Source: Bacteroidota bacterium
Lineage (GTDB): Bacteria > Bacteroidota > Bacteroidia > Bacteroidales > F082
Direction: 5' to 3'
Length of the DNA: 64,000 nucleotides
NCBI GenBank assembly: GCA_016845175.1
Contig: JAERTD010000091.1
Coordinates: 1-64,000 of the forward strand
The translations under genes and the position numbers were made by a program. The notes below the pieces were generated by a model. It was not told the origin of the DNA. It saw nothing but the letters and a program-made list of their open reading frames with translations, and made no database searches. Shown here in pieces: positions 2,410 through 50,682 of this stretch. Position 1 is the first letter of the stretch; each line of letters opens with the position of its first letter.

Positions 2410-4623
2410 ATGAAAAGTAGATTTTTAAGTGTATTGATTGGCATACTGACCATTAGTCTGTTAGCCAATGCCCAGGAGGACCTCAAGCAAATAAGCCTAT
2501 CCGAAATCTGGACTGATTATGCCTTCTACCCCAAGTCCGTAAGGGGCATGCGGAGTCTGGCAAACGGTAAACAATATACCATGATTAAAAATGGCTCGCT
2601 TGTTGTGTATGATTATAAAACCGGTGATTCTGCAGGAACTCTGATTTATGCTGATGAGCTCATTCCTGAGGGGCAAGAAAAACCAATTAAATTGGGAAGG
2701 TTTACCATAAGTGCTGATGAAACAAAATTCCTCATTCCTACCCAAACAGAATCCATCTACCGGCATTCATCCAAATCCAATTATTACATCTGGGATAAAG
2801 CCAATAAGAAGATGTCAAGTCTTGCGGATGGTGAAAAACAGCAATTGGCCGACTTCTCTCCTGCTGGTGACAAAGTGGCCTATATCCAGGACAATAATTT
2901 AGCATTTAAAACACTGGCCGACAACACCATAACCAAAGTCACTACCGACGGTAAATTCAATGAAATCATCAACGGAACCTGTGATTGGGTATATGAAGAA
3001 GAATTTGGCTTCACCAAAGCCTTTTTCTGGTCACCCGATGGTAAATACATTGCCTATTACAGATTTGATGAGAGTAAGGTGAAAGAATACACCCTTACTT
3101 TTTATGACCAACTGTACCCCGAACTCTATACCTATAAATACCCCAAAGCAGGAGAAGATAATTCCCTGGTTGAGATTTTTATATATGATGTGGAGAAAGG
3201 CACCACTCAGCACATAGACATAGGAAGTGAAACGGATCAGTATATTCCAAGAATTAAATGGACCAAGAGTTCCGGAAAGCTGTCTATTCAAAGGCTAAAC
3301 AGACTTCAAAACAAGTTAGATATCCTGTTGGCCAATGCTGAAGGTGGACAAACAAGTATACTGTATTCTGAGGAGAACCCTTATTATGTAGACATTACTG
3401 ATGACCTGAGATTTTTACCTGACAATGAACATTTTATACTCACTTCGGAAAAAAGCGGTTATAACCATATCTATCTGTATGATATGGAAGGAACTCTTGT
3501 AAAACAATTAACCGATGGTCTCTGGGATGTGATAAAAATATATGGCTATGATGCCAAACAAAAGCAGGTATTTTACCAGTCTGCCGAATTCTCACCACTG
3601 GATCAGGAAATATGCAAGGTCAGTTTGAAAGGTAAACGACAGAAATTATCAGCAAGGGCAGGTGTAAACAGAGCTACATTCAGTTCGAATTTCAGGTATT
3701 ATGTAAATACCTGGAGTAATGCCAACACACCTCCATATATCAGCATCAATAATAAGGATGGTGAAGTGGTTAGAGTGCTTCAGGACAATCAGGCTTTAAT
3801 TGACCGATTGGGCAACTATGATCTTAGCAAAAAAGAATTTTTCAGCTTTACCTCACCTGAAATCCTATTGCCAGACAGCACACAGGTCTCACTAAACGCC
3901 TGGCGCATCTTCCCTCCAGATTTTGATCCTCAAAAGAAATATCCTGTTCTGTTAACTATTTATGGAGGTCCGGGCTCACAAACTGTACAAAACAGTTGGG
4001 GAGGATTCAATTATATGTGGTATCAGATGCTGGCACAAAACGGCTTTATCATAGTTTCCGTCGACAACAGGGGTACTGGCAAACGAGGAGAGGTGTTTAA
4101 GAAAATGACCTATCAGGAGCTGGGTAAATATGAAACCCTCGATTATATTGAAACAGCAAAATATCTGGGAAAACTGGAGTATGTGGATAAAAGCCATATT
4201 GGCATTTTTGGATGGAGTTATGGTGGATTTATGGCCAGTAATGCGCTGTTCCAGGGTGCTGACTATTTTAATACTGCAGTGGCTGTTGCACCGGTGACCA
4301 GCTGGCGTTATTACGACAACATCTACACAGAGCGTTATATGAGAAAACCACAGGATAATGCTTCTGGTTACGATAACAATTCTCCCATCAACCATGTGGA
4401 CAAACTACAAGGGAACTTCCTGCTCATCCATGGAAGTACCGATGACAATGTTCATTTCCAAAATACCATGGATCTGGCCACTGCCTTGGTGAAAGCCAAT
4501 AAGCAGTTCGACTTTATGGCCTATCCCAACAAAAACCATGGCATTTACGGAGGGAATACCAGATACCATCTCTTTAAGAAGGTAACCGACTTCCTGTATG
4601 AACATATGAAAGCCCAGGACTAA
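2410..4623 (+). CDS. Dipeptidyl peptidase IV (S9B serine peptidase)
   Basis: The 737-residue protein starts with a signal peptide (MKSRFLSVLIGILTISLLANA), indicating a periplasmic or surface location. An N-terminal beta-propeller (about 40-480) carries the DWVYEEE motif, whose Glu pair binds the substrate N-terminus in this family. The C-terminal alpha/beta-hydrolase domain has the nucleophile motif GWSYGG (Ser603), Asp678 in STDDNVHF and His710 in NKNHGIYG, a complete catalytic triad. Family members cut X-Pro or X-Ala dipeptides from peptide N-termini, fitting a protein-degrading lifestyle. The open frame extends upstream to 2332, but that extension has no signal-peptide character and precedes the promoter, so 2410 was chosen. 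The gene stands alone. Confidence 0.95.
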   Translation: MKSRFLSVLIGILTISLLANAQEDLKQISLSEIWTDYAFYPKSVRGMRSLANGKQYTMIKNGSLVVYDYKTGDSAGTLIYADELIPEGQEKPIKLGRFTISADETKFLIPTQTESIYRHSSKSNYYIWDKANKKMSSLADGEKQQLADFSPAGDKVAYIQDNNLAFKTLADNTITKVTTDGKFNEIINGTCDWVYEEEFGFTKAFFWSPDGKYIAYYRFDESKVKEYTLTFYDQLYPELYTYKYPKAGEDNSLVEIFIYDVEKGTTQHIDIGSETDQYIPRIKWTKSSGKLSIQRLNRLQNKLDILLANAEGGQTSILYSEENPYYVDITDDLRFLPDNEHFILTSEKSGYNHIYLYDMEGTLVKQLTDGLWDVIKIYGYDAKQKQVFYQSAEFSPLDQEICKVSLKGKRQKLSARAGVNRATFSSNFRYYVNTWSNANTPPYISINNKDGEVVRVLQDNQALIDRLGNYDLSKKEFFSFTSPEILLPDSTQVSLNAWRIFPPDFDPQKKYPVLLTIYGGPGSQTVQNSWGGFNYMWYQMLAQNGFIIVSVDNRGTGKRGEVFKKMTYQELGKYETLDYIETAKYLGKLEYVDKSHIGIFGWSYGGFMASNALFQGADYFNTAVAVAPVTSWRYYDNIYTERYMRKPQDNASGYDNNSPINHVDKLQGNFLLIHGSTDDNVHFQNTMDLATALVKANKQFDFMAYPNKNHGIYGGNTRYHLFKKVTDFLYEHMKAQD

Positions 4624-42727: not shown

Positions 42728-43480
42728 ATGGACGATTCGGTATTTTATAGCAGTATTAGTCAGTATTACGACCACATCTTTCCTCTAAACAAGGCGCAGC
42801 TTAGCTTTATTGAAACGCAGCCTAATTATGGAAGTAACCTGAGAATTCTTGACATGGGCTGTGGTAGTGGCAGTTTGTCTCTGGCATTGGCAGAAAGAGG
42901 GCATCAGATAGATGCTATTGATTATGATGCTGAGATGATTGGTCTGGCAAATGAAAAAGCCAAAACCAACACGGCAAAGGTGAAACCTAAGTTTCAGCAA
43001 ATGGACATGAGAGAAATTGCCCAGCATTTTCCTGAAAACAGTTTTGATCAGGTGCTGTGTTTTGGCAACACCCTGGTGCACCTTGCCGATATGGAAACCA
43101 TAGCTGGATTTATTAATTCAATGGCACGACTTTGCAAACCCGGAGGTATGATACTAATTCAATTGTTGCATTATCAAAACATTTTCACCAACAGGAAGGC
43201 TAAATTACCCATAATCGAAAATGAGAAGATTCGTTTCGAACGCCATTATTCCTATGGAGATGAAAGAACAATTGATTTTAAAACTTCTCTGATGATCAAG
43301 GAGAGTGGTCAGCTTATACAAAACTGCATACCTCTATATGCTATTTTTAAAGAAGAATTGGAATTGCTTTTATCACATGCCGGACTAAGCCATATTAAAT
43401 TCTACGGAAACTTTAATTCGGAAGCATTGGAAGAAGATAGTATCCCTCTGGTGGTATCAGCTCAAAAAAGTAACCCATAA
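42728..43480 (+). CDS. Class I SAM-dependent methyltransferase
   Basis: A 250-residue Rossmann-fold methyltransferase. Motif I is ILDMGCGSGSLSLALAERG (about 40-58), the acidic loop follows in IDAIDYD, and post I contains FDQVLCFGNTLVHL. The type resembles small-molecule or lipid methyltransferases; the substrate is unknown. A TTG at 42722 is in frame but lies inside the -7 box, so the ATG at 42728 was taken. Confidence 0.82.
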   Translation: MDDSVFYSSISQYYDHIFPLNKAQLSFIETQPNYGSNLRILDMGCGSGSLSLALAERGHQIDAIDYDAEMIGLANEKAKTNTAKVKPKFQQMDMREIAQHFPENSFDQVLCFGNTLVHLADMETIAGFINSMARLCKPGGMILIQLLHYQNIFTNRKAKLPIIENEKIRFERHYSYGDERTIDFKTSLMIKESGQLIQNCIPLYAIFKEELELLLSHAGLSHIKFYGNFNSEALEEDSIPLVVSAQKSNP

Positions 43481-43511
43481 ACTCCAATATATTCTCCTGG
43501 ATACCTGGAGT

Positions 43512-44450
43512 TTAATTGGGATTGAAGTTCAGACTCTTAGACAACCTTAATGTAACCACATAATTATTGGTGAGCTGTGTTCCATTCATATTCTTATAAA
43601 ATGGATAATCATACTTAAGCGACACATTCCAGGTTTTAAAGAAATTATACCTGATTTGAGGAGAAATAAACATGACGTGACCACCCGTAGCATGTATTAA
43701 GTCCCCATCTTTATTTGAGGCCTTATCCCGATATTGGCTTCTCAGTTGTAAAGCCAAAGTAAGGGCCTTGCGAATTTTATAACCCACATACAAGGAATTA
43801 TTGTAGAGGTTACCATACTTATAATTGGTTCGGTCGGTTTTAATACGCTGGGAATATTCAAATGAATTATCAAAAAATAAAGCCAAATTGCCATCCATAT
43901 ATAATTTTGAAAACAGAAGACCCAAATGGTATTTATAACTCCCTGAAGATGGTTGAATGTCAATAGGTAAGATTACTGAACCATCTTCCTGATCAAAATC
44001 TCCAACAGGAAGGGTAATTCTAAACCTTGGAAAAATATTAAACAATCTTTTGCTGTTTCGATAGGCCAGATACTGGGCACCTATCACCAGGTCGCCAAAA
44101 CCAGTGGCATTGCGATTTTGATCAAACACAAAATATTGCGCTTTTGAAAAAAAGTAACCCATTTCAGCACTTAGCTTTAACCTACTCGTAATACCATAAG
44201 AAATGTTAACCGAAGAATATAAAAAATAAGAGTAGTCAATATATTCGTAGTCCGACTTATTGCTTCCTTTGAAATATATATCGGAATAGCTGTAGGTACC
44301 CAGTGCACTAATTTCCATGATTTTTTTTCCACCACCACTTGCTGAACCATCATCAGTAATTGGGTTACCAGCGGCACAGCATTGGGATTGAACACCTAGT
44401 GAACAACAAAACACAAGGCTGAAGATGCATAGAAAAATGTATTTGCACAT
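43512..44450 (-). CDS. Outer-membrane beta-barrel transporter-like protein with N-terminal Cys-Cys
   Basis: A 312-residue exported protein: signal peptide, then QCCAAGNPITDDG just after the cleavage site (Cys24-Cys25). The rest is strand-rich with aromatic ends (YFFSKAQYFVFD, RFRITLPVGDFD, NYVVTLRLSKSLNF), typical of MetA/porin-like transporter barrels. It is the last gene of a three-gene set with an Ig-like lipoprotein and an HMA-domain protein; 46 bases separate it from the lipoprotein gene. A role in metal transport or export at the outer membrane is inferred from the CC pair and the neighbours. Confidence 0.75.
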   Translation of the reverse strand: MCKYIFLCIFSLVFCCSLGVQSQCCAAGNPITDDGSASGGGKKIMEISALGTYSYSDIYFKGSNKSDYEYIDYSYFLYSSVNISYGITSRLKLSAEMGYFFSKAQYFVFDQNRNATGFGDLVIGAQYLAYRNSKRLFNIFPRFRITLPVGDFDQEDGSVILPIDIQPSSGSYKYHLGLLFSKLYMDGNLALFFDNSFEYSQRIKTDRTNYKYGNLYNNSLYVGYKIRKALTLALQLRSQYRDKASNKDGDLIHATGGHVMFISPQIRYNFFKTWNVSLKYDYPFYKNMNGTQLTNNYVVTLRLSKSLNFNPN

Positions 44451-44496
44451 CTGATGTAAGTTTAATAAAAAGCTTTGGCAAGGGTTGGTTTACGAC

Positions 44497-44865
44497 CTAA
44501 GGTTTATCAATAACTATAACGATAGTTTCCGAAACCGAGCCATTATCATTCGATGCTGTACATGTGATTATCTTCTCTCCTATACAACACTCAGAGCCGG
44601 TGAACCTGACTTGTGATCCATCCTCATTTAACACAAAGATATCACCCAAATCCACCTCCCATACAAAGCTTAAGCCCCCACCTGTGGCTTCACAGCTAAT
44701 AGTTGCGAACTCTTCACCTCCAAAATTAATGTTGGATTTATCTGAACTTAAACTTACAATTTCAGGAGTTGTAGTTTCAACATTTGCTGCTGGTGAGTCT
44801 TCTTTTTCACATGAGATCAAAAAAACCACGGACAAAACAATTATTGTTAATATTCTGAATTTCAT
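44497..44865 (-). CDS. Ig/PKD-like lipoprotein with Cys-Cys motif
   Basis: A 122-residue lipoprotein (signal MKFRILTIIVLSVVFLIS, Cys19). The mature part is one Ig/PKD-like sandwich with the usual Cys58-Cys102 pair (TISC ... ITCTASNDNGSVSETI) and a separate Cys93-Cys94 pair (GSECCIGE). Start: ATG 44865 is preceded at 7 bases by AGGAGG, a full Shine-Dalgarno site, rare in Bacteroidota; this rules out the TTG at 44871. Confidence 0.8.
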   Translation of the reverse strand: MKFRILTIIVLSVVFLISCEKEDSPAANVETTTPEIVSLSSDKSNINFGGEEFATISCEATGGGLSFVWEVDLGDIFVLNEDGSQVRFTGSECCIGEKIITCTASNDNGSVSETIVIVIDKP

Positions 44866-44872
44866 ACTCAAA

Positions 44873-44878
44873 CCTCCT
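44873..44878 (-). promoter_or_regulatory. Full Shine-Dalgarno site
   Basis: AGGAGG on the minus strand, 7 bases before the ATG at 44865, and overlapping the TAG stop of the upstream gene (TAGGAGG). It decides the lipoprotein start and allows termination-coupled initiation. Confidence 0.75.
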
Positions 44879-45551
44879 ATTGTTTACTAATCTTAATTCT
44901 GGAAATAATGTTATTGTTTCTTGAGAAAACCATCAAATAGTTGCCTGCAGCCATATGGTTTGACTCAATCTGATCATATGCTGAATAAATGTCTTTGGAC
45001 TTTATTAAATGTCCGGCCATAGAATATACATCAAGTCTTGCACTTCCCTTCTCTGAAACTGAAGGAAGCTGTATATTAAAATAAGTATTTCCCATCGATG
45101 GATACACTTTAATATCTGTTTCAGCCAGTGCATCTTCAATCGAAACATGAGGCATCCACAAATCCATTAAACTCAGGTAGCCAACTTCCACTTGAGTATA
45201 ATCTATGGTTCTTTCATACTCACAACAAGTACCTACCAGTAGTTCATAAGCTGCATCAGGAGCTTTAAACCATTCAGTATCATGCCCTGTATCAGCCACC
45301 GCCTGCATAATGATAAATGCATCGGTAATTAAGTCATCATAAGTTACTGAGGTAATTTTTTCGAAAGGATCGTATTCGGAGGATGAGACACCCTCCACAT
45401 AACTCAATTTATCCTCAATCCTAAGTTTACAGATATAACAATTTCCCAGTGTGATAAATTGAATCGTAAAATCCTCCCTTTGTTGAGCTAAGAGACTCGT
45501 ACTGGTAATAACTATGGAGAGAAAAATTAATAAAGTAGATTTCATTTTCAT
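44877..45551 (-). CDS. HMA-domain protein with T9SS C-terminal domain
   Basis: A 224-residue exported protein (signal peptide to LLAQ, about residue 23). The N-terminal heavy-metal-associated domain (about 28-115) has CYIC (Cys38, Cys41) at the metal loop, then DTGHDTEWFKAPDAAYELL and Cys109-Cys110 in GTCCEYER. This GHDTE...CCxYxR tail is typical of Bacteroidota copper-chaperone-like HMA proteins as I know them. The C-terminus (about 150-224: VYPSMGNTYFNIQLPS, YSMAGHLI, AAGNYLMVFS) is a type IX sorting domain, so this HMA domain is sent across the outer membrane. The start at 45551 fits the promoter at 45582; the longer frame to 45602 does not. Confidence 0.82.
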   Translation of the reverse strand: MKMKSTLLIFLSIVITSTSLLAQQREDFTIQFITLGNCYICKLRIEDKLSYVEGVSSSEYDPFEKITSVTYDDLITDAFIIMQAVADTGHDTEWFKAPDAAYELLVGTCCEYERTIDYTQVEVGYLSLMDLWMPHVSIEDALAETDIKVYPSMGNTYFNIQLPSVSEKGSARLDVYSMAGHLIKSKDIYSAYDQIESNHMAAGNYLMVFSRNNNIISRIKISKQ

Positions 45552-45589: not shown

Positions 45590-45749
45590 GGTTCATTACC
45601 ATGAGATCGGCATTCAGAAAACAACGAATACAACGTGAAAAACGCGATTAACATTCCACTTTTACCCGGGAAATATCGACTTGACAGGTATAGATTGGAT
45701 CTAATAAATCCAATTATTTTTATCGGGTTTGCATCAACTCAATGGATTA

Positions 45750-46442
45750 TCAACTTAACTCACTAATTTTTATTAGTCTGTCCATATTCTTAACTTGAAT
45801 GATACTGCCATCATTTTCAATAACTTCCTCTTTTTCCAGTTCTTTAAGAATTCTGATAACACTATCCTTGGACATGCCTGTTAGTTCAGCCATGTCTTGT
45901 CTTGATAAGGCAATCTTATTACCGCGATCATTAAATATTTTTTCATGCAGGTATATCAGACTGTCGGCAAGTCGTCCATGGATATTTTTATGGGTAAGAC
46001 AGTTAAACCTTTCATAATTGAAAATACCATCCCAACTGATCAGTTCCATGAATGATTCGGCAAATCGTTTATTCTCTCTGATCACCTGTTTAAAAACATG
46101 CAGATCAATAAAGCAAACCGATGATTCTTCCACAGCTCTTACTGAGGAATAATGAACCTGGTCAGCATAAATCCCAGGTGCCCCCAGAAAATTGGTAGGT
46201 TTAATGAATTGCAAAACCAAATTCCTATCACCAGAACCTTCTATATATACTTTTGCGATTCCAGAGGTAAAACTGATGACATGGGACATGGGTGCCCCTT
46301 GTTTGACAATGATTTCACCCTTCCTAAATACAACATGTCTTTTATTACAATTAATCAGCTCAAGTTCAGCATCGGACAAAACCTTGAACAAAGGTGATTT
46401 CATGGAACAAAATCTACAATTCATATCTTTTAAACATTCCAT
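45750..46442 (-). CDS. Crp/Fnr family transcription regulator with Cys-rich N-terminus
   Basis: A 230-residue Crp/Fnr regulator. N-terminal Cys3, Cys9, Cys12 (MECLKDMNCRFC) and Cys32 could hold a redox or Fe-S site, as Cys do in FNR, though the spacing is not that of FNR. A cNMP-binding-like domain (about 17-140, GEIIVKQGAPMSHV) and a C-terminal HTH (SRQDMAELTGMSKDSVIRIL) follow. The open frame reaches ATG 46610, adding 56 residues not usual for the family; ATG 46442 gives the normal length, but the long form cannot be excluded. It is divergent from hpdBCA with a CRP-type site between, so it probably controls that operon. Confidence 0.85.
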   Translation of the reverse strand: MECLKDMNCRFCSMKSPLFKVLSDAELELINCNKRHVVFRKGEIIVKQGAPMSHVISFTSGIAKVYIEGSGDRNLVLQFIKPTNFLGAPGIYADQVHYSSVRAVEESSVCFIDLHVFKQVIRENKRFAESFMELISWDGIFNYERFNCLTHKNIHGRLADSLIYLHEKIFNDRGNKIALSRQDMAELTGMSKDSVIRILKELEKEEVIENDGSIIQVKNMDRLIKISELS

Positions 46443-46655
46443 TAGAAAATAGTTTTTATTACATTGTACATCTTGGATGAGATCCGATGGTATGAGACCC
46501 TTTCTATAAATGAGTGAAGCTGACAATTCCCGACAAATATAATCAACAAGAGATAGGTTTGTCAGGTGATGCAAGGAAATAGCCTGGAAGACTTCCTTGT
46601 AGATTGTCATGAATCAATTTTTTCTTTAACTTTGAGTTCACCCTAGAATACTGAA

Positions 46656-46671
46656 GGTGAATGAATTCACA
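46656..46671. promoter_or_regulatory. CRP/FNR-type binding site
   Basis: GGTGAATGAATTCACA matches TGTGA-N6-TCACA with one mismatch; the arms GTGAAT/ATTCAC are a perfect inverted repeat. It lies between the divergent crp/fnr-like gene and hpdB, 113 bases before the hpdB start. No TAnnTTTG box was found for hpdB, which would fit an activator-dependent promoter. Confidence 0.6.
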
Positions 46672-46743
46672 GCACCATTAATTGTCAGGGATTAAATTCC
46701 TCTGAATACATATTCGCAAACTGGATTCAAAAAACTCAATAGC

Positions 46744-46755
46744 ATTCAATTGAAT
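46744..46755. promoter_or_regulatory. 12-bp palindrome ahead of hpdB
   Basis: ATTCAATTGAAT is a perfect palindrome 29 bases before the ATG. It may be a second regulator site or part of the leader. The rest of the 341-base gap 46443-46784 holds the CRP-type site and nothing else that I can name. Confidence 0.35.
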
Positions 46756-46784
46756 TGGCTGCTCTAACCTAATAACCTGATAAG

Positions 46785-49472
46785 ATGAACACCCCAACTA
46801 ACGGAAAGGAGCATGATAGTCAGTATAACCATTTTGGCAAGCTGGCATCCGAACAAACAACTGTACGAGAAGCTACTGATGCTCCTTCTTCAAGAACCCT
46901 CAGAGCCAAAGAACGTTACTTTGTCACCAAATCCTCGGCAAGCATCGAATACCCCTATTGGTATACCAGAACCTGGGAAGCGCTGGAAGGTGAGATACCC
47001 ATTATCCGAAGAGCTGAAGCCATGAAATCGGCTTTTTCTCATATCACTCCTGTGGTTTATCCCGGCGAGCTTATTGCCATGAGCAAGGCCAATTATCTCA
47101 GAGGATCCTTTCCGATGCCATGGTTATCAGAGGCCTATTTTATGGCTGCAGAAGGTGAGATGTATCAGGAAGCTTTACAAGCCGGCAAGGTTAGTGCTGA
47201 TACAGTAACCACTATGGGTCAGGGAGGTGGAAATGTCACCAAAAGTATGGGCAAAGTCTTGTCCATTGCAGGTAAATTTGGTTTGCGATCCGAGGAAATG
47301 CCCATGTTGGTGAAGATAGCCAAGAAATGGCATAATAAATCGGTGGATGATGTGGGCCACAAATACGAACAAATGGTACCCGGATATGATACCAAAGAGG
47401 AAATTATGCGTTCGGTCATCTGTATGTTCGATTCAGGCTATACCTTGCCACAGGGCCGGGAGGTGATGAATTACTATTATCCCTTACAATATGGCATCGA
47501 TGGAATCATTGATATGTGCAAGGAAGGCATCGAAGAAACTGCTGGCTATCCTGATATGGACCGATTGTATTTCTACAAGGCCATCATGCTCATGTTGGAA
47601 GGAATCCAAACCTGGATAAGAAACTATGCAGAGGAATACAAAGAAATAGCCACCTATTGCACTGAGGAACAAGAAAAAGAGGAATATCTGGACTTGGCAG
47701 AGAGGTTGTTATGGTTATCATCCAAACCTCCGAGAAGCTTTTTTGATGCAGTACAACTCACCTGGATCTTTCATATTGCTGTACTCAATGAAGATGCCAT
47801 CTCTGGTTTGTCACCCGGACGCCTCGGGCAGGTACTCTACCCCTATTGGAAAAGTGATATGGATAAGGGTATTATTAGCAGGGAATTAAGTTTGGAATGG
47901 CTGGAAAATATGCGCATGAAATTCACTCAAATTGACTGCTTTGCTTCCATGGGCGTCGTGGGTGGAGTGCTCTCGGGCAATACCTTTAACAATCTGTGTG
48001 TGGGTGGACTTGACAAAGAAGGGAACAGCGCAGCCAATGAGTTGGAAGCGCTGATACTGAAAGCTGGAATGACTTGTGATACTCCTCAGCCTACACTTTC
48101 ACTATTATTCGATGAAAAATCACCTGAAGACTTCCTGTTGAAAGGCGTGGAATGCACCAAGGTCGGTACTGGTTATCCAGCCTGGATTAACAACCAGGTG
48201 GCCATGGAATTCCTAATGACTAATTATGTGGAAGAAGGCATGACCATTGAGGAAGCAAGAGCCTGGGCCATAGGGGGTTGTCTGGAGACTTCTGCCTGTT
48301 CGTGGATGCCTCTTGAATATGAAGATATGACGCATTATATACCTGGAGGCTCTGCTCCTGCCACCAGTGTGGGTGTGCATTTTATATCACTTCCCAAAAT
48401 ACTCGAAACTGTCTTGAGCAGGGGTATTGACAAAAGAACAGGACAAAGGGTATATGAAGACCATCATTTCATATTAGATTCATATGAATCGGTCTGGAAG
48501 GCCTTTAAAAAGTATTTCAGGGAAACGGTAAAAGTGCTTACCCTGACCAATAATATACAGCATGATGCCTGGAGAAAGATCACACCCTCCCTGGTAAACT
48601 CCATGCTTAAACCTGATTGTCTTACCAAAGGGAAAGATATCGGACAACAGGGCTCACGTTACAACAGAACCTTCAATGTGGAAATCTGTGGGGGTGTGAA
48701 CCTTGCCAATGCCCTTGCCTCATTGAAGAAGAATGTGTTTGAGGACAAGAACTTTAGCCTTAAAGAGTTACGGGAAGCCCTGGATGCCAACTTTGGTTAC
48801 AAAACTGCACAGGAAACAGGCTCCTATTCTCTAATTGATCAGCAAAAGTCAGAGAACTTCTTAACCTACCTTAAGATTCATAAACTGTGTATGGATGCCC
48901 CGAAATATGGTAATGATGACCCCATGGTTGATGGTATATTTAAGGAGTGGCAGGAATGGTTTGCAGACATGTGTAGCGATTACACCTCTTTATACGACAA
49001 GGCCTTATACCCTTGTCAGATTTCAGTTTCCACCCATGCACCTATGGGAGCGGTTACCTTAGCTACTCCTGATGGCAGGCTGGCTGGCACTACCTTTGTG
49101 GATGGGTCTGTTTCGGCCTATCCAGGCACCGACAACAATGGACCTTATGCGCTGTTCAACTCGGCAACCTGTTACAACCATGCCTTGTCACAAAACTCAC
49201 AATTGAATATGAAAATACATCCATCGGTTGTGCAGGGACGTGAAGGGGCCAAGAAATTCCTTGAAATGATCAAAGCCTATTTGCGACAGGGTGCCTTTCA
49301 TGCTCAATTTAATGTGGTGGATTCACGCATGTTAAAAGATGCACAAGAGAATCCGGATGAATACAGGGGTCTCATGGTTCGCGTGGCTGGCTTTACACAG
49401 TACTGGGTTGAGCTTGGCAAACAGATTCAGGATGAAGTTATCGCCAGGACTGAATACCAGGAGATTGGTTAA
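46785..49472 (+). CDS. hpdB: 4-hydroxyphenylacetate decarboxylase, glycyl radical subunit
   Basis: An 895-residue glycyl radical enzyme. The thiyl radical Cys499 and Glu501 lie in GGCLET, the glycyl radical Gly869 in RVAGFTQYW; the 370-residue spacing equals that of characterised clostridial HpdB (Cys503-Gly873). With the same offset of four, Ser340, His532 and Glu633 match the substrate-binding Ser344, His536 and Glu637. It decarboxylates 4-hydroxyphenylacetate, from tyrosine fermentation, to p-cresol, in the cytoplasm without oxygen. The small subunit and activase genes follow directly, and the small subunit sets it apart from phenylacetate and indoleacetate decarboxylases as I know them. 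A related 3,4-dihydroxyphenylacetate activity is possible. Confidence 0.92.
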   Translation: MNTPTNGKEHDSQYNHFGKLASEQTTVREATDAPSSRTLRAKERYFVTKSSASIEYPYWYTRTWEALEGEIPIIRRAEAMKSAFSHITPVVYPGELIAMSKANYLRGSFPMPWLSEAYFMAAEGEMYQEALQAGKVSADTVTTMGQGGGNVTKSMGKVLSIAGKFGLRSEEMPMLVKIAKKWHNKSVDDVGHKYEQMVPGYDTKEEIMRSVICMFDSGYTLPQGREVMNYYYPLQYGIDGIIDMCKEGIEETAGYPDMDRLYFYKAIMLMLEGIQTWIRNYAEEYKEIATYCTEEQEKEEYLDLAERLLWLSSKPPRSFFDAVQLTWIFHIAVLNEDAISGLSPGRLGQVLYPYWKSDMDKGIISRELSLEWLENMRMKFTQIDCFASMGVVGGVLSGNTFNNLCVGGLDKEGNSAANELEALILKAGMTCDTPQPTLSLLFDEKSPEDFLLKGVECTKVGTGYPAWINNQVAMEFLMTNYVEEGMTIEEARAWAIGGCLETSACSWMPLEYEDMTHYIPGGSAPATSVGVHFISLPKILETVLSRGIDKRTGQRVYEDHHFILDSYESVWKAFKKYFRETVKVLTLTNNIQHDAWRKITPSLVNSMLKPDCLTKGKDIGQQGSRYNRTFNVEICGGVNLANALASLKKNVFEDKNFSLKELREALDANFGYKTAQETGSYSLIDQQKSENFLTYLKIHKLCMDAPKYGNDDPMVDGIFKEWQEWFADMCSDYTSLYDKALYPCQISVSTHAPMGAVTLATPDGRLAGTTFVDGSVSAYPGTDNNGPYALFNSATCYNHALSQNSQLNMKIHPSVVQGREGAKKFLEMIKAYLRQGAFHAQFNVVDSRMLKDAQENPDEYRGLMVRVAGFTQYWVELGKQIQDEVIARTEYQEIG

Positions 49473-49516
49473 TGTGATGCGAATACAAATACACACTTAA
49501 AATAAGACCTGACATT

Positions 49517-49774
49517 ATGGACTATACCCACAAAGATTGCAAACATTTCCTTGCGGTGGATGTATTCAAAGGTATATGCAAGCGCGACCAGGATAATATT
49601 CTGGCCGATGATAGCAGTTGTGATCGATTTGACTTGCTGGAACGATGCAAATACTGCAAGAATTACAAGGCAACCCAGGAGCAATTAGGCCTTTGTATGG
49701 ATACAGTGGATGCTTATCCTGACATGATTGCCAAAACCTGTAATGACTTCCAATGGAGAAGCCATCAAGCCTAA
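49517..49774 (+). CDS. hpdC: 4-hydroxyphenylacetate decarboxylase small Fe-S subunit
   Basis: An 85-residue protein matching HpdC. His5, Cys8, Cys21, Cys35 and Cys44, Cys47, Cys60, Cys75 correspond to the ligands of two [4Fe-4S] clusters, one with a His ligand (His3/Cys6/Cys19/Cys36 and Cys42/Cys45/Cys59/Cys77 in the clostridial protein). The subunit is required for a stable, activatable decarboxylase complex. The 3' end overlaps hpdA by 22 bases. Confidence 0.92.
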   Translation: MDYTHKDCKHFLAVDVFKGICKRDQDNILADDSSCDRFDLLERCKYCKNYKATQEQLGLCMDTVDAYPDMIAKTCNDFQWRSHQA

Positions 49775-50682
49775 GGGCTACCATTTTCGATGTGCAGGGT
49801 TTGTCGGTTCATGACGGTCCTGGATGCCGGACCGTTGTATTTTTCAAAGGATGCCCTTTGAATTGCTATTGGTGCTCGAACCCTGAAGGCATCTCGTTGG
49901 AAACCACCCCTTTTTATAACGCACAGAAATGCATAATGGATGGTAAATGTGCAGAGGCTTGCCTCTTGGATGCCATCACCATAACCGATGGAGCTTTGGA
50001 TATTGATCGCAATCGGTGTGGGCCTTGTCATGAATACCATTGTATTGATGTGTGCTTAACTGAGGCATTAAGGAAACCTTCCTATGACATCAGTTTAGAT
50101 GAGCTCATGAAGATTATCCAACGCGACCGGAAATTCTGGGGAGCCGAGGGAGGGATTACCTTATCAGGTGGGGAAGCTTTCCAACAGTTTGATTTCAGTT
50201 TTGAGCTTTTGAAACAAGCCTATGATTCTTACATTCACACGGCTATTGAAACATGTGGTTGTGTCCCCTGGGATCATTATGAAAAAGCCCTACCTTATTT
50301 GAATTGGATATATTTTGATCTGAAGCATATGGATGCTAAATCGCATAAGGAAGCCACTGGAGTGCATAACAAACTCATTTTGGAAAATGCTAAAAAACTG
50401 GTGGCACATTTTAAGGGAAGACTGATGTTTCGAACACCCATAATTCCGGGTTTTAATGACAACCAATCTCACATAGAATCTATGATTCAGTTTCTTCAGG
50501 AAATTAAGATAAAGGAAATTAACATCCTGCCTTTACATAATCTGGGCCTGGAGAAATACAAACATATGGGTTTGAAAAAAGAAGCCTTAGCAAGCCCAAA
50601 ACCCATTGAATTGCAGCGCATTGCCGACCGCTTTGCCAAAGAAAAAATCGAATGCTATATAGGTTCTGAAACGCCTTTTTAA
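49753..50682 (+). CDS. hpdA: 4-hydroxyphenylacetate decarboxylase activating enzyme
   Basis: A 309-residue glycyl-radical activase. The radical-SAM motif is CPLNCYWC (CX3CX2C) near residue 35, with the GGE motif in ITLSGGEAFQQ. An inserted ferredoxin-like part carries two Cys groups (CIMDGKCAEAC and CGPCHEYHCIDVC), as in HpdA-type activases. It uses S-adenosylmethionine and a reduced [4Fe-4S] cluster to make the Gly869 radical on HpdB. Start overlaps hpdC; the stop codon shares bases with the parC stop on the other strand. Confidence 0.92.
   Translation: MEKPSSLRATIFDVQGLSVHDGPGCRTVVFFKGCPLNCYWCSNPEGISLETTPFYNAQKCIMDGKCAEACLLDAITITDGALDIDRNRCGPCHEYHCIDVCLTEALRKPSYDISLDELMKIIQRDRKFWGAEGGITLSGGEAFQQFDFSFELLKQAYDSYIHTAIETCGCVPWDHYEKALPYLNWIYFDLKHMDAKSHKEATGVHNKLILENAKKLVAHFKGRLMFRTPIIPGFNDNQSHIESMIQFLQEIKIKEINILPLHNLGLEKYKHMGLKKEALASPKPIELQRIADRFAKEKIECYIGSETPF

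Follow-up and report, generated by a model that had tools for sequence, protein, structure and literature searches.

Gene Content of the Locus

The window analyzed here is a stretch of 64,000 nucleotides from contig JAERTD010000091.1 of a Bacteroidota bacterium (Bacteroidales, F082). Its minus strand carries, head to tail and with operon-like packing, the genes for a 224-aa secreted protein with an HMA domain and a C-terminal type IX secretion system (T9SS) sorting domain (44877..45551), a 122-aa Ig/PKD-like lipoprotein (44497..44865), and a 312-aa outer-membrane barrel (43512..44450), which are separated by gaps of 11 and 46 bp, respectively. The coordinates and motifs reported for these genes in the preliminary description are correct. 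Their assignment to one three-gene operon agrees with the packing and with the synteny described below; however, the unit comprises four genes, as the linked upstream gene for a Crp/Fnr-family regulator (45750..46442, minus strand) had been overlooked. The start of the latter gene was set by that of its homologs, and the open reading frame (ORF) could begin at 46610. At the other end, where the barrel gene converges with a methyltransferase gene, a stem-loop between the two (43475..43518; strand unassigned; RNA fold -11.4 kcal/mol, z -2.3) is the probable end of the operon; a consensus scan for terminators flagged none at this position.

All three exported products were described as having an adjacent pair of cysteines, and each of these pairs proved to be conserved in homologs. 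Only four of the 43 ORFs in the window contain CC, and three of the four are these genes; given also the conservation of each pair, a chance origin of the shared motif is ruled out.

The Three Exported Proteins

The product of the first gene consists of a signal peptide, an HMA domain (45210..45470, minus strand), and a type A T9SS sorting domain at the C-terminus (residues 149-224; 44880..45107, minus strand), and thus is predicted to be extracellular. The proposed fusion of the two domains is borne out by a match to the MerP model (E=3e-7, below the equivalog cut-off), a CopZ-like fold, and a TIGR04183 score of 27.9 bits against a cut-off of 23. The Pfam HMA model (PF00403) yields 15.7 bits, under its gathering cut-off of 24.8. 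In Foldseek comparisons, the HMA region of the AlphaFold2 model matches CopZ (6ff2; TMt 0.93, rmsd 0.8 Å) and MerP (1osd; TM 0.86), and this modeled structure firmly supports the ferredoxin-like β-α-β-β-α-β fold of HMA domains. The cysteines C38 and C41 of the CxxC motif (codons 45429-45440) and C109 and C110 of a CC-x-Y-x-R tail (codons 45222-45227) are invariant among relatives, and the tail is kept in 13 of 13 HMA sequences. Thus, the protein shares the HMA fold and CxxC motif with the CopZ and MerP metallochaperones but differs from them in having the conserved tail, the signal peptide, and the sorting domain. The latter domain is conserved in the orthologs, scores 25.5 with Pfam PF18962 (slightly below the cut-off of 27), and lies in the C-terminal half of the model, which resembles the T9SS sorting domains of mirolase and NucA (8qb1/8glk, Foldseek). 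The genome encodes T9SS machinery, namely SprA (2599 bits) and PorU (1330 and 1186 bits).

The CC-x-Y-x-R tail marks a large HMA subfamily in Bacteroidota, short versions of which were found in 110 of the 395 genomes of a phylum-wide sample. The full-length HMA–T9SS form is much rarer: it was found in no genome of this phylum sample except that of the window, in two of the 393 genomes of an order-level sample (the window genome and G492), and in five of the 149 genomes of a family-level sample.

The lipoprotein encoded by the second gene matches no Pfam or NCBIfam family, and its assignment to a known family was rejected on this basis. A two-domain relative matches PKD/Ig models, and therefore an Ig/PKD fold is likely for the window protein as well. 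The CC pair noted earlier at positions 93-94 is present (codons 44584-44589), and all 67 members of the family have a cysteine pair in the form of either CC (43 members) or CxxC (24 members). The lipidated cysteine of the lipobox (C19) is followed by EKEDS, and the resulting C-E-K-E-D-S fits the surface-export (LES) rule C-X-K-(D/E)2-X (PMC5080379). The motif is kept in only five of the 67 family members according to a crude scan, hence surface exposure of the window lipoprotein is predicted with no more than moderate confidence.

The AlphaFold2 model of the third protein is a barrel of 12 strands (pLDDT 88.3); among solved structures, it most closely resembles the COG4313 channel Pput2725 (4rl8; Foldseek E=8e-15, TMq 0.73), followed by FapF. 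Like the COG4313 / Phenol_MetA_deg channels Pput2725, SphA, and TcpY, it has 12 strands, a similar length, an N-terminal segment ahead of strand 1, and a match to PF13557 (1.1e-10); in contrast to them, with which it shares 12% identity, its family has an invariant QCC at the mature N-terminus, is nearly always accompanied by a Cys-pair lipoprotein, occurs in metal or arsenic contexts, and in some members has a C-terminal HMA domain. The barrel was correctly reported to contain CC just past the signal cleavage site: its mature N-terminus reads QCCAAGNP, with QCC at residues 23-25 (C24-C25, codons 44376-44381). In Pput2725, the segment preceding the first strand enters and occludes the lumen (PMC4493636). 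Since the corresponding segment of the window barrel begins with QCCAAGNP, its cysteine pair is predicted to lie in a lumen plug or at the periplasmic mouth, and not at the cell surface; the segment 16-40 that includes this pair is a low-confidence stretch of the model. The QCC start is kept in 19 of 19 barrel homologs collected by a search without that motif. Conservation of QCC was judged on this set only, as the patterns QCC[AST]AGNP and QPSSG had served to retrieve the loci L067-L136 used below. Among known proteins that handle ionic copper at the outer membrane, the copper-binding TonB-dependent transporter OprC has an unrelated barrel, being a 22-strand TonB-dependent importer.

Conservation and Genomic Context of the Gene Set

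The search for the three genes outside the window, as proposed in the preliminary description, revealed that they and the Crp/Fnr gene constitute a quartet (Crp/Fnr, HMA–T9SS, lipoprotein, barrel) that is conserved in this order in nine genomes, so that full-length syntenic orthologs of the HMA–T9SS gene are present in eight genomes besides that of the window. In the family-level sample of 149 genomes, the same five genomes, and no others, encode a full-length HMA–T9SS protein and a full-length barrel with more than 50% identity to that of the window, with the genes lying next to one another.

A scan of 84,980 species yielded 70 barrel loci, which were sorted into four groups. Seven loci contain the complete quartet and, with the window and G492, make up the nine quartet genomes. 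In another seven loci (L074, L076, L079, L080, L083, L084, and L114), found in metagenome-assembled genomes of Ignavibacteria, Kapaibacteria, Flavobacteriales, and Salinivirgaceae, the barrel itself extends at its C-terminus into an HMA domain that ends with CC-x-Y-R, so that HMA domain and barrel form one polypeptide; the Pfam HMA model was found in all three fused barrels tested, and by the predicted topology of the barrel its C-terminus, and thus the fused domain, would face the periplasm. The upstream gene in this group encodes a double-HMA T9SS protein in L083, and a T9SS protein with an FtrD-like (PF10080) CxxC domain located directly upstream of the lipoprotein–barrel pair in four other loci (L074:7914-8669, L079:1890-2582, L080:7366-8163, and L114:8348-9061); in Ignavibacteria and Kapaibacteria, the upstream T9SS cargo has this domain in place of HMA. 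The largest group comprises 50 loci located beside ars genes, where the neighbors encode ArsR, ArsF, ArsG, an SO_0444-like permease, rhodanese, ArsC, ArsM, and ACR3; these identities were confirmed on representatives, those of ArsF, ArsG, the permease, ACR3, and ArsM by NCBIfam. The remaining six loci have neither context. The lipoprotein gene adjoins the barrel gene in 67 of the 70 loci. The lipoprotein–barrel pair thus forms a broader module, hitherto undescribed, and is the widespread core of what had been presented as a three-gene surface set; most of its copies neighbor arsenic genes, and the HMA–T9SS protein represents a less common addition to it. The ars clusters share the homologous pair with the quartet but lack the HMA–T9SS protein and a linked Crp/Fnr gene.

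Two of the quartet loci (L047/L067 and L207) continue from CusA/CzcA–OMF–CusB-like–HMA genes. The other seven of the nine, including the window, have no metal-resistance genes alongside, and no ars genes were found beside the pair at the window or any other quartet locus. No RND pump, adaptor, or TolC-type outer-membrane factor (OMF) is encoded in the window operon; a CusA/CzcA-family RND gene is located on another contig of the same genome. The quartet presumably has in common with the copper/silver efflux system CusCBA the efflux of soft metals from the envelope, and at the two loci named above the genes of both are neighbors, but the barrel of the quartet is not a TolC-type OMF. Spread by plasmids was dismissed, as only one remote hit (21%) was obtained.

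Several related arrangements were observed in passing. In genome G073 (L051 around 3434-3592), a barrel remnant of 53 residues (77% identical) follows a CusB-HMA set, which suggests decay or deletion of the quartet within a Cus-type cluster. In L202 (1-2139, minus strand), two HMA-CC domains are found at the N-terminus of an apparent TonB-dependent receptor, possibly a copper receptor that carries its own metallochaperone domains. Remoter barrels starting with QCC[SA]TGSP (L043, L044, and L045) have a related lipoprotein directly upstream and represent a third version of the pair, with an additional putative lipoprotein of ~420-450 aa; no metal genes were seen in these short loci.

The Regulator and Its Candidate Operator

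The Crp/Fnr protein has an N-terminal C-x2-C-S-M-K-S motif, is encoded in all nine quartet loci, and shares C-x2-C-S-M-[KR]-S and a later conserved cysteine with its homologs. A palindrome-like element, AACGTGAAAAACGCGAT, is located between its gene and the HMA–T9SS gene (45632..45648, plus strand) and is the sole intergenic match in the genome; by itself, this match is not above chance within the window. Variants of the form ATCGTRAAAATCRCGAT were found between the same two genes in seven quartet loci (L067-L072 and L127) as well as in the window, and the ninth quartet locus, L207, has only a degraded version. The common position in several genomes is suggestive of an operator. Two other palindrome matches in the genome fall inside genes rather than promoters, and therefore a wider regulon was rejected.

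Proposed Function

The preliminary description had inferred metal capture or export, perhaps of copper, at the cell surface. Metal or metalloid handling is well supported by the Cus-type clusters, the ars clusters, and the HMA–barrel fusions, and the interpretation as a whole is partly supported. As the lipoprotein–barrel pair recurs in both copper and arsenic resistance clusters, it looks like an undescribed route for toxic metals over the outer membrane. For the quartet, we propose, with a confidence slightly better than even, a soft-metal relay that runs outward from the periplasm through a thiol-plugged channel to surface thiol proteins and probably carries Cu(I) or Ag(I). Periplasmic HMA-type donors, which relatives carry as fusions with the barrel or with CusB and which may otherwise be short MerP-like proteins, would load the COG4313-type barrel, whose N-terminal plug would hold the vicinal dithiol of QCC. 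By thiol exchange, the barrel would hand a thiophilic cation outward, with Cu(I) or Ag(I) as the most likely candidates, and the cation would then be seized at the outer face by the cysteine pairs of two proteins, the Ig-like lipoprotein and the HMA protein displayed by the T9SS, and thereby kept from re-entry. The operon would be controlled by the Crp/Fnr protein.

This proposal is supported by the quartet synteny, the Cus-type clusters, the HMA–barrel fusions, the ars contexts, the invariant cysteine pairs, the predicted folds, and the T9SS machinery, as well as by the constant neighborhood of lipoprotein and barrel (67 of 70 loci), the exchange of CC for CxxC in the lipoprotein, the FtrD-like CxxC cargo of Ignavibacteria and Kapaibacteria, and the CusA/CzcA-family gene elsewhere in the window genome. 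It is weakened by the seven of nine quartet loci that lack metal-resistance neighbors, by the poorly conserved LES motif of the lipoprotein and the low-confidence position of the barrel cysteines, and by the hydrophobic molecules that COG4313 channels are thought to carry (PMC4493636). For the quartet, the CopZ-like fold and the Cus-type surroundings favor Cu(I)/Ag(I) as the putative substrate; arsenicals are the likely substrate of the ars-linked branch. A more far-reaching and doubtful version would make the barrel a metal gate of an undescribed kind, a COG4313-type channel with a dithiol plug in its lumen that is loaded by periplasmic HMA domains, unloads to a surface metallochaperone and lipoprotein, and serves arsenic as well as copper.

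The direction of transport could be the opposite. The surface HMA protein and the lipoprotein would then scavenge a scarce soft metal, such as copper, which would pass via the barrel to periplasmic HMA proteins. A high-affinity binder displayed at the surface, together with a surface lipoprotein on a channel, would recall uptake systems such as BtuG-BtuB or Sus. FtrD-like domains, found here in T9SS cargo, are parts of iron uptake systems, and in L047/L067 and L114 the set has a gene for a TonB-dependent receptor as its neighbor. COG4313 channels are themselves regarded as uptake channels (PMC4493636). However, every diagnostic neighbor is an efflux or detoxification gene (CusA/B, ArsG, ACR3, ArsM), which makes efflux the more likely direction, and the barrel has neither a TonB box nor a plug domain, so that an energy source for concentrating metal inward is not evident; we consider uptake unlikely.

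Still less probable are two explanations in which the cysteine pairs or the substrate are read differently. The pairs might shuttle electrons or disulfides to the outer membrane, with metals being incidental, as would fit the CxxC in 24 of the 67 lipoproteins, the thioredoxin-like ArsF and DsbD-related ArsG among the ars-type neighbors, and the redox-type class of the Crp/Fnr regulator; yet the barrel and the T9SS cargo are fused to HMA domains and not to thioredoxin folds, and no thioredoxin partner is encoded close to the quartet. The other, which we rate no higher, takes As(III), a methylated or organic arsenical, or another metalloid as the substrate and the quartet as a side branch of an arsenic-export module. 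The ars genes around the pair in 50 of 70 loci, the good binding of As(III) by vicinal thiols, and the suitability of hydrophobic methylarsines for a COG4313 channel would be consistent with it, but ars genes are absent from the quartet loci, the fold of the HMA domain is that of a Cu/Hg-type chaperone, and both quartet loci with metal neighbors lie in Cus-type clusters.

Every part of the proposed relay has a known fold, and the lipoprotein–QCC barrel module is undescribed in the open-access literature, where we found no paper combining T9SS, an HMA domain, and copper, and no description of this module, a T9SS-displayed metallochaperone, or an HMA–barrel fusion. RND–TolC pumps aside, the exit of soft metals and arsenicals from the Bacteroidota periplasm is poorly known, and the module, present in dozens of genomes near arsenic genes, together with its copper-type T9SS version offers a concrete and mutable candidate for this step. 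If the relay exists, extracellular metallochaperones would join the cargo of the T9SS as a new class, and one branch of the COG4313 channels would gain a substrate class. If the gate version holds as well, a chaperone-type relay of thiol exchange would span the outer membrane, and a single gate would have been recruited for both copper and arsenic.

Flanking Glycyl Radical Enzyme Genes

The glycyl radical genes next to the quartet were considered as part of the metal system and ruled out, as they are hpdBCA and are not conserved beside the quartet. This plus-strand locus (46785-50682) contains a complete set of genes for the p-cresol-forming 4-hydroxyphenylacetate decarboxylase in the genome of an uncultured Bacteroidota bacterium: the large and small subunits score 1401 and 63 bits, respectively (both over cut-off), and the radical-SAM activase scores 335 bits, under its equivalog cut-off. 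The oppositely oriented hpdBCA and Crp/Fnr genes share the divergent intergenic region 46611-46784.
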